This document shows, one piece after another, positions 108 through 6,158 of a DNA stretch of 6,158 nt. Each line of letters begins with the position of its first letter. Position 1 is the first letter of the stretch. The notes below the pieces were generated by a model. That model saw only the letters and a list, made by a program, of their open reading frames with translations, made no database searches and was not told the origin of the DNA. The DNA is from Anaerolineae bacterium. GTDB lineage: Bacteria > Chloroflexota > Anaerolineae > 4572-78 > NAK82. Location: positions 1 through 6,158 of the forward strand of contig JAUVPY010000179.1 of the NCBI GenBank assembly GCA_030598425.1. The letters are read 5' to 3'. The translations under genes were made by a program, and so were the position numbers.

Positions 108-689
108 GTGAGAAAGGCAAAGATGGCAAAAGCAAAGGCAAAACGGGTATCAAAAGAAGAGCGGCGTCGGCTGCGGGACCGAGCGCATCTCCGGCGCCGG
201 TTGATATGGATAGGGATCGCGGTCGGGGCGTTGGCTCTGGTGGGTTTTATAGCCTTACGCGAGGTATCCCGACCCCGCCCAGGCGAGGCCGTTAGGTCGA
301 TGGGCAACCAACACATCGGACCTGATCAAGTAGGCGCCATCGCCTACAATTCAACGCCACCCACATCCGGGCCGCACCTGGGGCAGCTTGCCCGTTGGGG
401 GGTCCACAGCGAACCCGTCCCTAACGAGCTTCAGGTTCACAACCTCGAGGACGGTGGCGTGATGGTCCAGTACGACTGTGAGGAGTGTGATGAGTTGGTG
501 GTGCAATTGGCCGGGGTGGTCCAACGTTATAACGATCACGTGATCCTGGCACCGTATCCAGGTATGGACCATCGCATTGCTCTCACGGCCTGGAATAGGA
601 TTGACGCCTTTGACGAGTTTGATGAAGAACGTGTCGCGACCTTTATTGAAGCCTACGCGGGTGATGACCATCACGCGCGTACTCCTTGA
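108..689 (+). CDS. DUF3105 family membrane-anchored protein
   Basis: Protein of 193 residues with a very basic N-terminus (residues 1-31), one membrane segment at about 32-50, and a DUF3105 domain in the remainder, probably outside the membrane. Visible hallmarks are PPTSGPH (84-90), WGVHSEPVPNE (97-107), HNLEDGG (111-117) and an ILAPYPGMDHRIALTAW block (146-162). Several conserved His/Asp residues and a CEEC pair (C124, C127) look suited to metal or redox chemistry, but the family has no established reaction. The start is uncertain. GTG at 108 has GGAG 5 nt upstream, while ATG at 123 (MAKAKAK) has AGAAAGG 5 nt upstream and gives 188 residues; the domain is unaffected. It leads the cluster with the Trx-like lipoprotein (42 nt downstream) and cytochrome c, suggesting a shared envelope redox or metal task. 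Confidence 0.85.
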   Translation: MRKAKMAKAKAKRVSKEERRRLRDRAHLRRRLIWIGIAVGALALVGFIALREVSRPRPGEAVRSMGNQHIGPDQVGAIAYNSTPPTSGPHLGQLARWGVHSEPVPNELQVHNLEDGGVMVQYDCEECDELVVQLAGVVQRYNDHVILAPYPGMDHRIALTAWNRIDAFDEFDEERVATFIEAYAGDDHHARTP

Positions 690-731: not shown

Positions 732-1112
732 ATGACCCAGAAAACAATTTCCACCCTCGCGCTTGTTGTAGCCGCCCTCTTGTTGTCGGCCTGCGGTCCC
801 ACTCAGACTGAGCCCGTTGCGCCAGATCCTGAGCGGCCAACCTTCATCTTCTTTTTCACCGATCCCTGAGCGAATTGAGAGGTGATGAAGCCCATCGTGA
901 ATGGGCTTGAGGATGAATATGCCAAGCGTATTGCCTTTCTGCAGCTTGACGCCGACAATGACGGTCGAGATGCCTTTGCGTCTTTCAATCTACGAGGACA
1001 TCCCAGTTATGTAATCATTGACTCATTCGGCGGCGTATTGTGGAAGAGCGTAGGCGAGCAGCCGGCCAGCGAGTTGAGAGGTGCGATTCAGCGGGCGCTG
1101 GAAGACGCCTGA
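732..1112 (+). CDS. Thioredoxin-fold lipoprotein, putative UxxU selenoprotein
   Basis: Read through two in-frame UGA codons, this is a 126-residue protein. Residues 1-20 are a lipoprotein signal peptide with lipobox LSAC (Cys21 lipidated), residues 22-35 a Pro/Glu linker, and the rest a thioredoxin fold: strand PTFIFFFTDP, active site U46-A-N-U49 followed by EVMKP, strand IAFLQLDAD, the RGHP loop with the cis-proline (P91), strand SYVIID, and a C-terminal helix. UGA falls on exactly the two CxxC positions, with no frame change and otherwise intact coding on both sides. A hairpin at 888-908 fits a bacterial SECIS. The likely role is a membrane-tethered extracytoplasmic thiol/selenol oxidoreductase, perhaps serving cytochrome c or metal-protein maturation. 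ATG 732 is the only upstream start, as a TAA sits two codons before it; it lacks a clear Shine-Dalgarno. Without recoding the product would stop after residue 45. The alternative is a double nonsense pseudogene, which would need both mutations to hit the catalytic cysteines. Confidence 0.8.
867..869 (+). other. First recoded UGA codon (Sec46, N-terminal position of CxxC)
   Basis: In frame with ATG 732, directly after FFFTDP. The position matches the first, nucleophilic cysteine of a thioredoxin active site. The next two codons encode Ala-Asn and are followed by the second UGA. The candidate SECIS apical loop starts 26 nt after this codon. Confidence 0.75.
876..878 (+). other. Second recoded UGA codon (Sec49, C-terminal position of CxxC)
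   Basis: In frame and separated from the first UGA by exactly two codons. It is followed by EVMKP, matching the residues after the second Cys in thioredoxins, including the proline five positions on. The candidate SECIS apical loop starts 17 nt after this codon. Confidence 0.75.
888..908 (+). promoter_or_regulatory. Candidate bacterial SECIS element
   Basis: AAGCCCAU (888-895) and AUGGGCUU (901-908) form a perfect 8-bp stem closing the loop CGUGA (896-900). The bacterial SECIS model requires a stem-loop with a small apical loop, a G among the first two loop bases, and roughly 16-37 nt between UGA and loop. Here G is the second loop base, and the distances are 17 nt from the second UGA and 26 nt from the first, so one element could serve both. 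The hairpin lies inside the coding sequence, as bacterial SECIS elements do. SelB binding is inferred. Confidence 0.7.
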
Positions 1113-1147: not shown

Positions 1148-1675
1148 GTGGCAAAGCCATTGCAGCGTAAGGGCGCCCGAACCAGCTCAAACAGCAGGCC
1201 GGTGCAACGGATGTGGAAATGGGTCGCTGCAGTTGCCGCGGCCGTTCTAATATTCGGGCTGGGCGGCATCTGGCTGCGGCTTGGCAGTGATCAGGGGCAA
1301 ACTGGCACCAGTCAAGCGTTAATACCATCAGAGCATTTGACCGATGGCAAGGCCCTGTACGAGGCGAATTGCGCCTCCTGCCACGGCATCAACGGCGAGG
1401 GGCAGCCTAATTGGCGGGTCCCCAACGAACAGGGGGTGTACCCGGCGCCCCCTCATAACAACGATGGTCACACCTGGCACCATGCCGATCAGCAACTATT
1501 GGAAATCATTGCGCAGGGGGGTAGCCTACCAAACACTGGGATGCCGGGATATGGAGGCATACTGAACCAAGCGCAGATGGAGGCCATCCTAACCTATATC
1601 AAGACGTTCTGGGGGCCAGAGCAACGGGAGTTCCAGGAACAGGTGACCCGAAACCGGCAGCAACAAACGCAATAA
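1148..1675 (+). CDS. Membrane-anchored class I c-type cytochrome
   Basis: Protein of 175 residues with a basic N-terminus, an uncleaved membrane anchor at about 24-43 (WKWVAAVAAAVLIFGLGGIW), a short linker, then one cytochrome c domain. The heme site is CASCHG (C75, C78, H79), and the likely sixth ligand is M132 in GMPGYG. Between them lies a GHTWHH segment (107-112) typical of one branch of small cytochromes c. The domain should face the outside of the membrane and carry electrons between a donor and a terminal acceptor. The C-terminal tail is charged and Gln-rich. The start is GTG at 148 codons-in-frame position 1148, with GGGGGAAG at 1131-1138 as a slightly distant ribosome-binding site; ATG at 1211 would cut into the basic leader. 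It begins 35 nt after the Trx-like gene and is probably co-transcribed with it. Confidence 0.9.
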   Translation: MAKPLQRKGARTSSNSRPVQRMWKWVAAVAAAVLIFGLGGIWLRLGSDQGQTGTSQALIPSEHLTDGKALYEANCASCHGINGEGQPNWRVPNEQGVYPAPPHNNDGHTWHHADQQLLEIIAQGGSLPNTGMPGYGGILNQAQMEAILTYIKTFWGPEQREFQEQVTRNRQQQTQ

Positions 1676-5416: not shown

Positions 5417-5820
5417 ATGATTAGAACAACGACTGAATACGCTTTCAGAACCCGGCTAGACTTGCCCTATGAGCAGGCGGTCGCGAACGTGACAACAGCC
5501 CTGAAAAACGAGGGTTTTAGCGTGCTAACAGAAATCGACGTCAAGGCCACTCTGAAGCAAAAGCTGGACGTCGACTTTCTAAGTACGTCATATTGGGAGC
5601 CTGTAACCCGTCTTTGGCGCATCAGGCCCTAAACACAGAATTGGAGATCGGGCTGCTGCTACCATGCAACGTCATCGTTTATGAGGACAATGGCGGGAGC
5701 GTGGTTTCCATCGTGGATCCCATCTCAATGCTGGGCGTCATCGAGAGCCCCGACCTGGATCCGGTTGCGCAGGAAGCCCGTGCTCGGCTGCAACGGGTGA
5801 TCGAAGCGGTAAGCGTTTAA
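5417..5820 (+). pseudogene. DUF302 protein with a single frameshift
   Basis: The first part (5417 to about 5578) reads as the N-terminal half of DUF302: YAFRTRLDLPYEQAVANVTT, then EGFSVLTEIDVKATLKQKLDVDF. After that the frame must change at about 5576-5580: restoring one base gives RKYVILGACNPSLAHQAL and then LLPCNVIVYEDNGGSVVSIV through to TAA 5818-5820. The reconstructed protein of about 134 residues is full length and keeps the GACNP and LLPCN cysteine motifs. Known structures show a small alpha/beta fold; the function is unknown, though the genes are often near metal or redox stress genes. One lost base in an otherwise undamaged gene suggests a sequencing indel or a very recent mutation. 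The local TTTCT is not a classical slippery heptamer, so programmed shifting is unlikely. AGGAG at 5403-5407 is the ribosome-binding site. Confidence 0.8.
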
Positions 5821-6005
5821 TGGGGAGATGCTTTGTGGAAGAGGTGAACCCTTCCGGGCAGCCAATGGAATGGCCAATGCCGCTCTGGTTGATGAGCGAC
5901 GATGGCCTTGACGACCTGCTTGATCTCAAAAGCCTGCCCCGAGGAAATGGCCGTTTTCCCACTGAGCTTCGACCACACCTAAAGGAGAACGTTTTGAATG
6001 AGTGA
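5820..6005 (+). CDS. Small protein of unknown function, coupled to its neighbours
   Basis: I do not recognise this 61-residue product. It has a WPMPLWLM segment in its first half, an acidic stretch SDDGLDDLLDL, and a basic middle (LPRGNGRFPTELRPHLK). There is no signal peptide, convincing membrane helix or CxxC. ATG 5820 overlaps the DUF302 stop (TAATG), and its own TGA at 6003-6005 overlaps the next start by 8 nt, so translational coupling on both sides supports a real gene. It has no ribosome-binding site of its own. It could instead be a leader peptide that controls the gene at 5998, whose AGGAG lies inside this ORF. Confidence 0.5.
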   Translation: MGRCFVEEVNPSGQPMEWPMPLWLMSDDGLDDLLDLKSLPRGNGRFPTELRPHLKENVLNE

Positions 6006-6158
6006 AGCGATCTTGAACGTATGCAATATGAGGGATCCGTTGTGCGCGCAGGGAGTGGAACAGGTCCTGGGTAGGTTGCCAGGTGTGCACCACGTGGAAA
6101 CCAACCCAGTCAATGGCACGACCGTGGTGCACTATGACCAAACCAAGACCGACTATGA
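5998..6158 (+). CDS. N-terminal HMA domain protein, probably a heavy-metal P-type ATPase (partial)
   Basis: The first 53 residues are visible before the window ends. They match a heavy-metal-associated domain: strand ILNVCNM, the metal loop MRDPLCAQGVEQVL, RLPGVHHVETNPVNGTTVVHYD. In standard HMA domains the loop is GMxCxxC; here the first Cys position is Asp (D13) and only C16 remains, with another Cys at C9 in the first strand, so metal binding may differ. Such N-terminal domains most often precede a metal-translocating P1B-type ATPase; a stand-alone chaperone is excluded only if the frame continues far beyond the edge. A good ribosome-binding site, AAAGGAG, lies about 10 nt before ATG 5998. 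The upstream SHOCT and DUF302 genes fit a metal export operon. Truncated by the window. Confidence 0.8.
   Translation, partial: MSEAILNVCNMRDPLCAQGVEQVLGRLPGVHHVETNPVNGTTVVHYDQTKTDY

Follow-up and report, generated by a model that had tools for sequence, protein, structure and literature searches.

The gene at positions 732-1112 of the 6,158-nucleotide stretch of Anaerolineae bacterium DNA analysed here (the window) very likely encodes a thioredoxin, predicted to be lipid-anchored, in which two in-frame UGA codons are both read as selenocysteine (Sec), giving a UxxU active site, with one downstream hairpin probably acting as the SECIS for both. We found the same UGA pair in 66 other distinct genes, nearly all of which carry the same hairpin, and this makes it very likely that both codons specify selenocysteine. 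The local recoding proposed in the initial annotation, which was made from the letters of the window, is strongly supported by the 67 UxxU genes, by a covarying hairpin and by the presence of selA, selB and part of selD in the window's MAG; the hairpin and the extent of the family had been missed there.

Frame, protein and predicted fold

From its ATG to its terminal TGA the frame holds two in-frame TGAs and zero further stops (Table 1), and with TGA read as U it translates as MTQKTISTLALVVAALLLSACG...FIFFFTDPUANUEVMKPIVNGLE...RGHPSYVIID...LEDA. The two UGAs had been placed on the cysteine positions of a thioredoxin CxxC, and that placement is confirmed, the pair being shared by 67 genes. The protein matches PF00085 at 32.8 bits against a gathering cut-off of 23.5 (Pfam); the CxxC active site of thioredoxins is absent from it and UxxU stands in its place, as in a subfamily with an altered motif. 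An AlphaFold2 model obtained with a 55-sequence alignment has a mean pLDDT of 93, its best PDB matches are thioredoxins (Foldseek E ~1e-8), and profile comparison agrees. In this model the two TGAs correspond to residues 46 and 49, where the first helix of the thioredoxin fold (residues 47-63) begins. Pro91 of the GHP motif is what we take to be the cis-Pro equivalent, judging from the alignment and from general knowledge of thioredoxin structure. The lipoprotein signal, the cis-Pro loop, the thioredoxin fold and the cytochrome c neighbour that had been read from the window were all borne out by the alignment and Pfam. The sole cysteine of the protein, Cys21 (792-794), is invariant in alignment A1, and the mature protein, having no cysteine except that of its lipid anchor, would thus act as a Se-Se/selenol couple.

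Table 1. Features of the UxxU gene and its neighbours in the window
Feature	Position	Strand	Remarks
DUF3105 (PF11303), upstream neighbour	108..689	+	42 bp gap to the UxxU gene
UxxU thioredoxin-fold lipoprotein gene	732..1112	+	126 residues, stop TGA 1110-1112, frame open under TGA=U
Predicted lipoprotein signal peptide	732..794	+	lipobox ...LLLSAC at its end
UGA 1, predicted Sec46	867..869	+	first active-site position
UGA 2, predicted Sec49	876..878	+	second active-site position
Predicted bacterial SECIS hairpin, AAGCCCAU-CGUGA-AUGGGCUU	888..908	+	8 bp, 5-nt loop 896-900
Gly-His-Pro, cis-Pro loop	996..1004	+	
c-type cytochrome (PF00034/PF13442), downstream neighbour	1148..1675	+	35 bp gap to the UxxU gene
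Start of heavy-metal-associated (HMA) domain protein	5998..6158	+	runs off contig

UGA is the terminator of the DUF3105, response-regulator and kinase ORFs within the window, so the code is not globally changed. This agrees with what had been argued from the window alone, and we rule out a global reassignment of UGA.

In a collection of 5.8 billion proteins the window protein has 19 matches, its own piece included, all of which are 71-86 aa long and cover at most 59% of the query, in a search for which full-length proteins were eligible by length. The family is hidden because gene callers cut at the UGA. These short pieces (19/19) and an ORF that begins at GTG 882 might be taken as signs of two short products, the first terminated at UGA 1 and the second re-initiated past UGA 2, with no readthrough. 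Such pieces would, however, divide one thioredoxin fold where its first helix begins, the spacing and the frame are kept in 67/67 genes, and the SECIS hairpin would be purposeless; we accord this explanation almost no weight.

Distribution and conservation of the family

A profile search pooled over all fetched loci gave 174 matches. Seven of these were excluded because of a gap or a short end, and removal of exact repeat copies left 117 distinct rows. These comprise 67 distinct UxxU genes (the window's included), 25 UxxC genes and 25 CxxC genes. In 67/67 UxxU genes the pair is TGA/TGA with a spacing of 9 nt, and the 55-codon core is otherwise free of stops. Median pairwise identity across that core is 38%, with 61 clusters at 80%, and at such divergence decay is no explanation for the UGA pair. 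The window does hold a broken DUF2085-like gene and an apparently split DUF302 gene, as would be expected if the two stops had arisen through pseudogene decay or sequencing error. Against this, 66 further distinct genes, drawn from many assemblies, have the same TGA pair, and both the protein on either side of the TGAs and the hairpin are conserved. Decay would not strike the same two codons, and we reject it as extremely improbable. The initial view that two stops on these positions are hard to ascribe to decay is thereby strengthened.

Wherever UxxU carriers are named they belong, going by record titles, to the Chloroflexota. A scan of named genome contigs with the pattern MxPIV[DN]G[LFA]E, which overlaps the hairpin and is therefore biased towards UGA genes, returned 40 loci, all from Chloroflexota, with UxxU in 35/40 and UxxC in 5/40. 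Besides the window's gene, we found 11 two-TGA genes in 10 other genomes among the 61 searched (the window's own included). A profile search of 396 genomes of the class, run without the seed pattern and listing the best matches by score, gave at least 54 two-TGA matches, all 54 of which were fetched. Among these listed matches 53 are UxxU, from 49 genomes; the remaining one (G166, L185) has a UxxC motif and a second TGA that lies 76 codons downstream. A scan of viral contigs found no relative.

The UxxU genes share properties beyond the UGA pair. GHP is present in 66/67 of them and in 0/25 UxxC and 0/25 CxxC genes; the sole UxxU gene that lacks it (L184) lies on a contig that stops just ahead of the GHP site. 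With gene starts chosen by script, on which both counts rest, exactly one cysteine is found in 62/67 UxxU proteins, and the lipobox pattern is found in 59/67 UxxU versus 9/25 UxxC proteins. On a tree the UxxU state requires 3 changes versus a shuffled mean of 37.8, a result drawn from few columns that does not establish a single UxxU origin without reversion to Cys.

The UxxC thioredoxins seem to form a further selenoprotein group, also widespread in the class. Many of the genes at the 25 UxxC loci have FYSNxUSxC and a predicted N-terminal hydrophobic stretch and carry the same SECIS hairpin. The window's MAG itself contains a second thioredoxin-like gene of this kind (G000:C266, L047:216-635), with USSC and a covarying hairpin, CCUGUC-GUC-GACAGG. 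Tandem arrangements also occur: L024 has two UxxC thioredoxin genes in tandem, and in L186 a UxxC gene lies beside a CxxC copy with PIVNEIE.

The predicted SECIS hairpin and the selenocysteine machinery

The bSECIS model given in PMC13188914 has a loop of 3-9 nt with a G within its first two positions, a stem of 4-16 bp, a spacing of 16-37 nt from the UGA and a minimum free energy no higher than -7.5 kcal/mol; SECIS practice is also treated in PMC1088965. In the window the hairpin loop starts 26 nt past UGA 1 and 17 nt past UGA 2, and the folding energy of -10.2 to -11.7 kcal/mol lies beyond the bSECIS limit of -7.5 kcal/mol. Four codons past UGA 2, nearly every gene has CCC AUC GUG (A/G)AU GGG, which encodes PIV(N/D)G. 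All five core pairs form in 62/67 UxxU, 24/25 UxxC and 1/25 CxxC genes, and the loop is GUG in 67/67 UxxU and 20/25 UxxC genes.

Synonymous and compensatory changes preserve the hairpin in UGA-bearing genes. Across 92 aligned genes 98.7% of cells are paired, with 17 double-sided changes versus 1.6 in shuffles and a covariation score of 0.157 versus 0.083 in shuffles; when the pairing partner is slid by 1-3 bases, pairing falls to 11-56%. Examples are CCC GUC GUG AAC GGG (L145, L146), CUC GUC GUG AAC GAG (L018) and CCU GUC GUG AAC AGG (L198, L201). Most CxxC rows are by appearance ordinary, more distant thioredoxins, and their lack of the hairpin is partly due to this distance. As a control for it we used a synonymous codon redraw in which each protein is held constant: in 200 draws the five pairs occurred in a mean of 3.2 and a maximum of 9 of the 67 genes, and in 60 draws the mean folding energy of a 27-nt window rose from -9.2 to -4.2 kcal/mol.

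In 62/67 UxxU genes one and the same hairpin, of -4 kcal/mol or lower, fits both UGAs by the rules on loop, stem and spacing; among CxxC genes, tested at the matching places, the count is 3/25. With the energy rule of -7.5 kcal/mol or lower applied to the 27-nt window, the counts are 51/67 UxxU, 21/25 UxxC and 5/25 CxxC. The core helix is broken in five UxxU genes (L153, L158, L161, L171 and L170), for at least one of which (L158) a shifted helix with a bulge is predicted. RNAalifold gave no consensus structure for the joint alignment of 92 sequences and did not recover the hairpin there; for UxxU genes alone it gave a weak, partly different structure (-0.8 kcal/mol), and for UxxC genes alone it recovered the hairpin (-6.0 kcal/mol). 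In place of RNAalifold, we base the case for the hairpin on counts for a named structure, on the sliding of the pairing partner and on the synonymous redraw. Scanned against Rfam, the window shows no known RNA; a Clostridiales-1 match in the kinase gene (E 0.57, below the gathering score) is taken as chance.

In the mechanism that we propose, SelB with Sec-tRNA would bind the GUG loop once UGA 1 has entered the A site, the loop then lying 26 nt ahead. Three codons on, the same hairpin would recruit SelB and Sec-tRNA again for UGA 2, with the loop now 17 nt ahead. The product would be a lipid-anchored protein outside the membrane, carrying a Se-Se/selenol couple.

The machinery for such decoding is partly present in the window's MAG, which consists of 482 contigs and is 63% complete. 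selA is found on C330 (E 7e-141, Pfam-confirmed), selB on C404 (638 aa), and selD as its C-terminal half only, at a contig end. Of the four Sec genes to which the initial annotation had tied the recoding, selA, selB and part of selD thus stand, and selC (tRNA-Sec) was not found in this 63% complete genome. Five RF01852 matches in the same genome were rejected as tRNA-Sec; they sit on tRNA-Ser genes and one tRNA-Arg gene.

Across the 61 genomes searched, the window's own counted among them, tRNA-Sec is present in 47, and 8 of the 10 other UxxU genomes of this set have it; the anticodon is UCA in 6/6 tRNA-Sec loci checked (ARAGORN). SelA (1e-60 or better) is found in 44 of the 49 genomes with listed UxxU genes, a figure obtained by cross-reading the SelA list against the UxxU list, versus 315 of the 396 genomes of the class, an enrichment that is modest. 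Among the five of these genomes outside the SelA list, G017 has tRNA-Sec and G070 has both SelB over the cut-off and tRNA-Sec. G008, another of the five, has a partial SelA and SelB over the cut-off, and its tRNA-Sec-like match is a tRNA-Ser. In the other two SelA, SelB over the cut-off and tRNA-Sec were all not found: G317, which is 78% complete, and G326, a single 5.6 Mb contig rated 95% complete that carries a UxxU gene with its hairpin (L147). The best tRNA matches in these two genomes are Leu and Ser. For G326 we can offer no more than guesses, namely that the machinery was lost recently or that there is a gap.

G326, and the tRNA-Sec not found in the window's MAG, are what one would expect if a suppressor tRNA decoded UGA as cysteine or another residue, making the protein an ordinary CxxC thioredoxin. 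Suppression needs no hairpin, yet the hairpin is kept in UGA genes and present in 1/25 CxxC genes; moreover, selA, selB and part of selD are present in the window's MAG, the neighbouring genes terminate normally at UGA, and a CxxC gene with the GHP signature was seen in 0/25 cases. We regard suppression as very improbable and retain the reading of both codons as selenocysteine.

Gene context, function and related selenoproteins

The neighbourhoods of UxxU genes were compared with those of 25 CxxC, 25 UxxC and 30 tRNA-Sec loci of similar flank length, using neighbour families identified on one representative each and picked for recurring near UxxU genes themselves. Relatives of the cytochrome c are found within 1.4 kb of 20/67 UxxU genes, against 1/25 CxxC, 0/25 UxxC and 0/30 tRNA-Sec loci. 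P-type ATPases with HMA (Cu-type) are found within the same distance of 20/67 UxxU genes, against 0/25 CxxC, 1/25 UxxC and 0/30 tRNA-Sec loci. Direct adjacency on the same strand is observed for cytochrome c in 16/67 and for the ATPase in 13/67, with 27/67 loci having such an arrangement in all. In one genome (Chloroflexi bacterium isolate Dive96_bin1.126, L105:5905-6780) the UxxU domain is fused in frame with a cytochrome c domain.

A cupredoxin lies within 1.4 kb of 5/67 UxxU genes and of none of the controls. The CsoR-type query matches 5/67 UxxU loci and also 3/25 CxxC and 4/25 UxxC controls, and is therefore not specific to UxxU loci. For the remaining queries the counts at UxxU loci and at CxxC/UxxC/tRNA-Sec loci are 11/67 and 1/0/0 for DsbA/DUF3105, 5/67 and 0/0/1 for DUF2085, 7/67 and 13/4/1 for TlpA (a query that matches thioredoxins generally) and 1/67 and 0/1/3 for the response regulator.

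Two further genes of the window appear damaged. The DUF2085-like gene at 1724-2480 is interrupted by a TAG in frame (1967-1969) and apparently by shifts of frame, and relatives of its first piece lie within 4 kb of 12/67 UxxU loci, the window's own included. The DUF302 (PF03625) gene at 5417-5820 is apparently split over two frames near 5590-5630; in the second frame the profile match begins at position 21, and the first frame has no Pfam match.

This gene context links the family to c-type cytochromes and copper export. The role that we favour, as a reductant or exchanger for the cysteines of a cytochrome and copper pathway, seems to us about evenly poised; the targets would be the haem-binding cysteines of apocytochromes or the cysteines of copper sites. 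As the main alternative, the paired selenols may bind Cu(I), making the protein a copper chaperone and not a redox enzyme. Consistent with this are the Cu-type P-ATPases (PF00122 and HMA) near 20/67 genes, the cupredoxin in 5/67 versus none of the controls, the CsoR-type repressor in 5/67 (though 3/25 CxxC and 4/25 UxxC controls match too), the HMA protein that begins near the end of the window, and the His that precedes the cis-Pro in 66/67 UxxU proteins, GHP being found in 0/50 UxxC and CxxC genes. A UxxU metal-binding selenoprotein, NF041115, is also described in PMC13188914. On the other side, the protein retains the thioredoxin fold, the UGA-encoded pair standing where the first helix begins and the cis-Pro position being conserved, and the cytochrome c fusion and adjacency suggest electron or thiol exchange. 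We judge a purely chaperone function unlikely, and redox and copper-chaperone roles could exist side by side.

Taken further, the redox reading would make the protein an all-selenium thioredoxin of the Chloroflexota, a diselenide lipoprotein in direct electron exchange with a c-type cytochrome, to which it is fused in one case, and servicing the cysteines of copper or haem sites, with one compact SECIS for both Sec residues whose stem dictated PIV(N/D)G. We put this picture forward tentatively, holding it in its entirety to be somewhat doubtful.

ResA, CcmG and TlpA are membrane-anchored proteins with a thioredoxin fold outside the cytoplasm and a CxxC motif. The window family differs from these reductases in having UxxU, and weak profile similarity to ResA was seen in 3/6 proteins scanned, far below the ResA, TlpA and DsbE cut-offs. 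No NCBIfam model scored over its cut-off for the six proteins scanned.

The initial annotation had named animal selenoprotein L (SelL) as the known example of UxxU, a statement that needs widening: in prokaryotes UxxU is also described for Prx-like (PF00578), NF041115 and FmdB (TIGR02605) families (PMC9312934, PMC13188914, PMC2398784), and has been reported from marine metagenomes in Prx-like 2 sequences (PMC2398784). The Prx-like thiol:disulfide oxidoreductases (PF00578, UxxC/UxxU) have a bacterial UxxU redox motif in common with the window family, and three UxxU members tested had no match to PF00578 (AhpC-TSA) at E 0.01. NF041115 (metal-binding/putative mercuric reductase) and the FmdB family likewise share two Sec in UxxU, and none of the six proteins scanned with NCBIfam matched NF041115 or TIGR02605 at E 0.01, the fold being that of thioredoxin instead. 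SelL is Prx-like, is listed with aquatic eukaryotes and is reported to form a diselenide bond (PMC2398784). It shares the UxxU motif; the window family, by description, is set apart from it by being bacterial, by PF00085 and by a hairpin within the reading frame.

Closest in fold is the bacterial UxxC thioredoxin selenoprotein, which has PF00085, a UGA at the first catalytic position and a downstream SECIS in common with the window family; in the latter, by contrast, both positions are UGA, the protein is a predicted lipoprotein and the cis-Pro loop is GHP. Table 1 of PMC13188914 lists the PF00085 thioredoxin selenoprotein as UxxC, with one Sec. UxxU is thus known from other bacterial families but absent from the thioredoxin listing of that source, and we found no report of a UxxU thioredoxin family in titles and abstracts of the open-licence literature.

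The family would add a large double-Sec group to the bacterial selenoproteome, and it provides a natural experiment on the ability of one bacterial SECIS to serve two UGAs that lie at different distances from it. It also hints at a protein motif shaped by an RNA element, and the window protein and its relatives would provide a bacterial UxxU model with which to ask why both cysteines of a thioredoxin are replaced.
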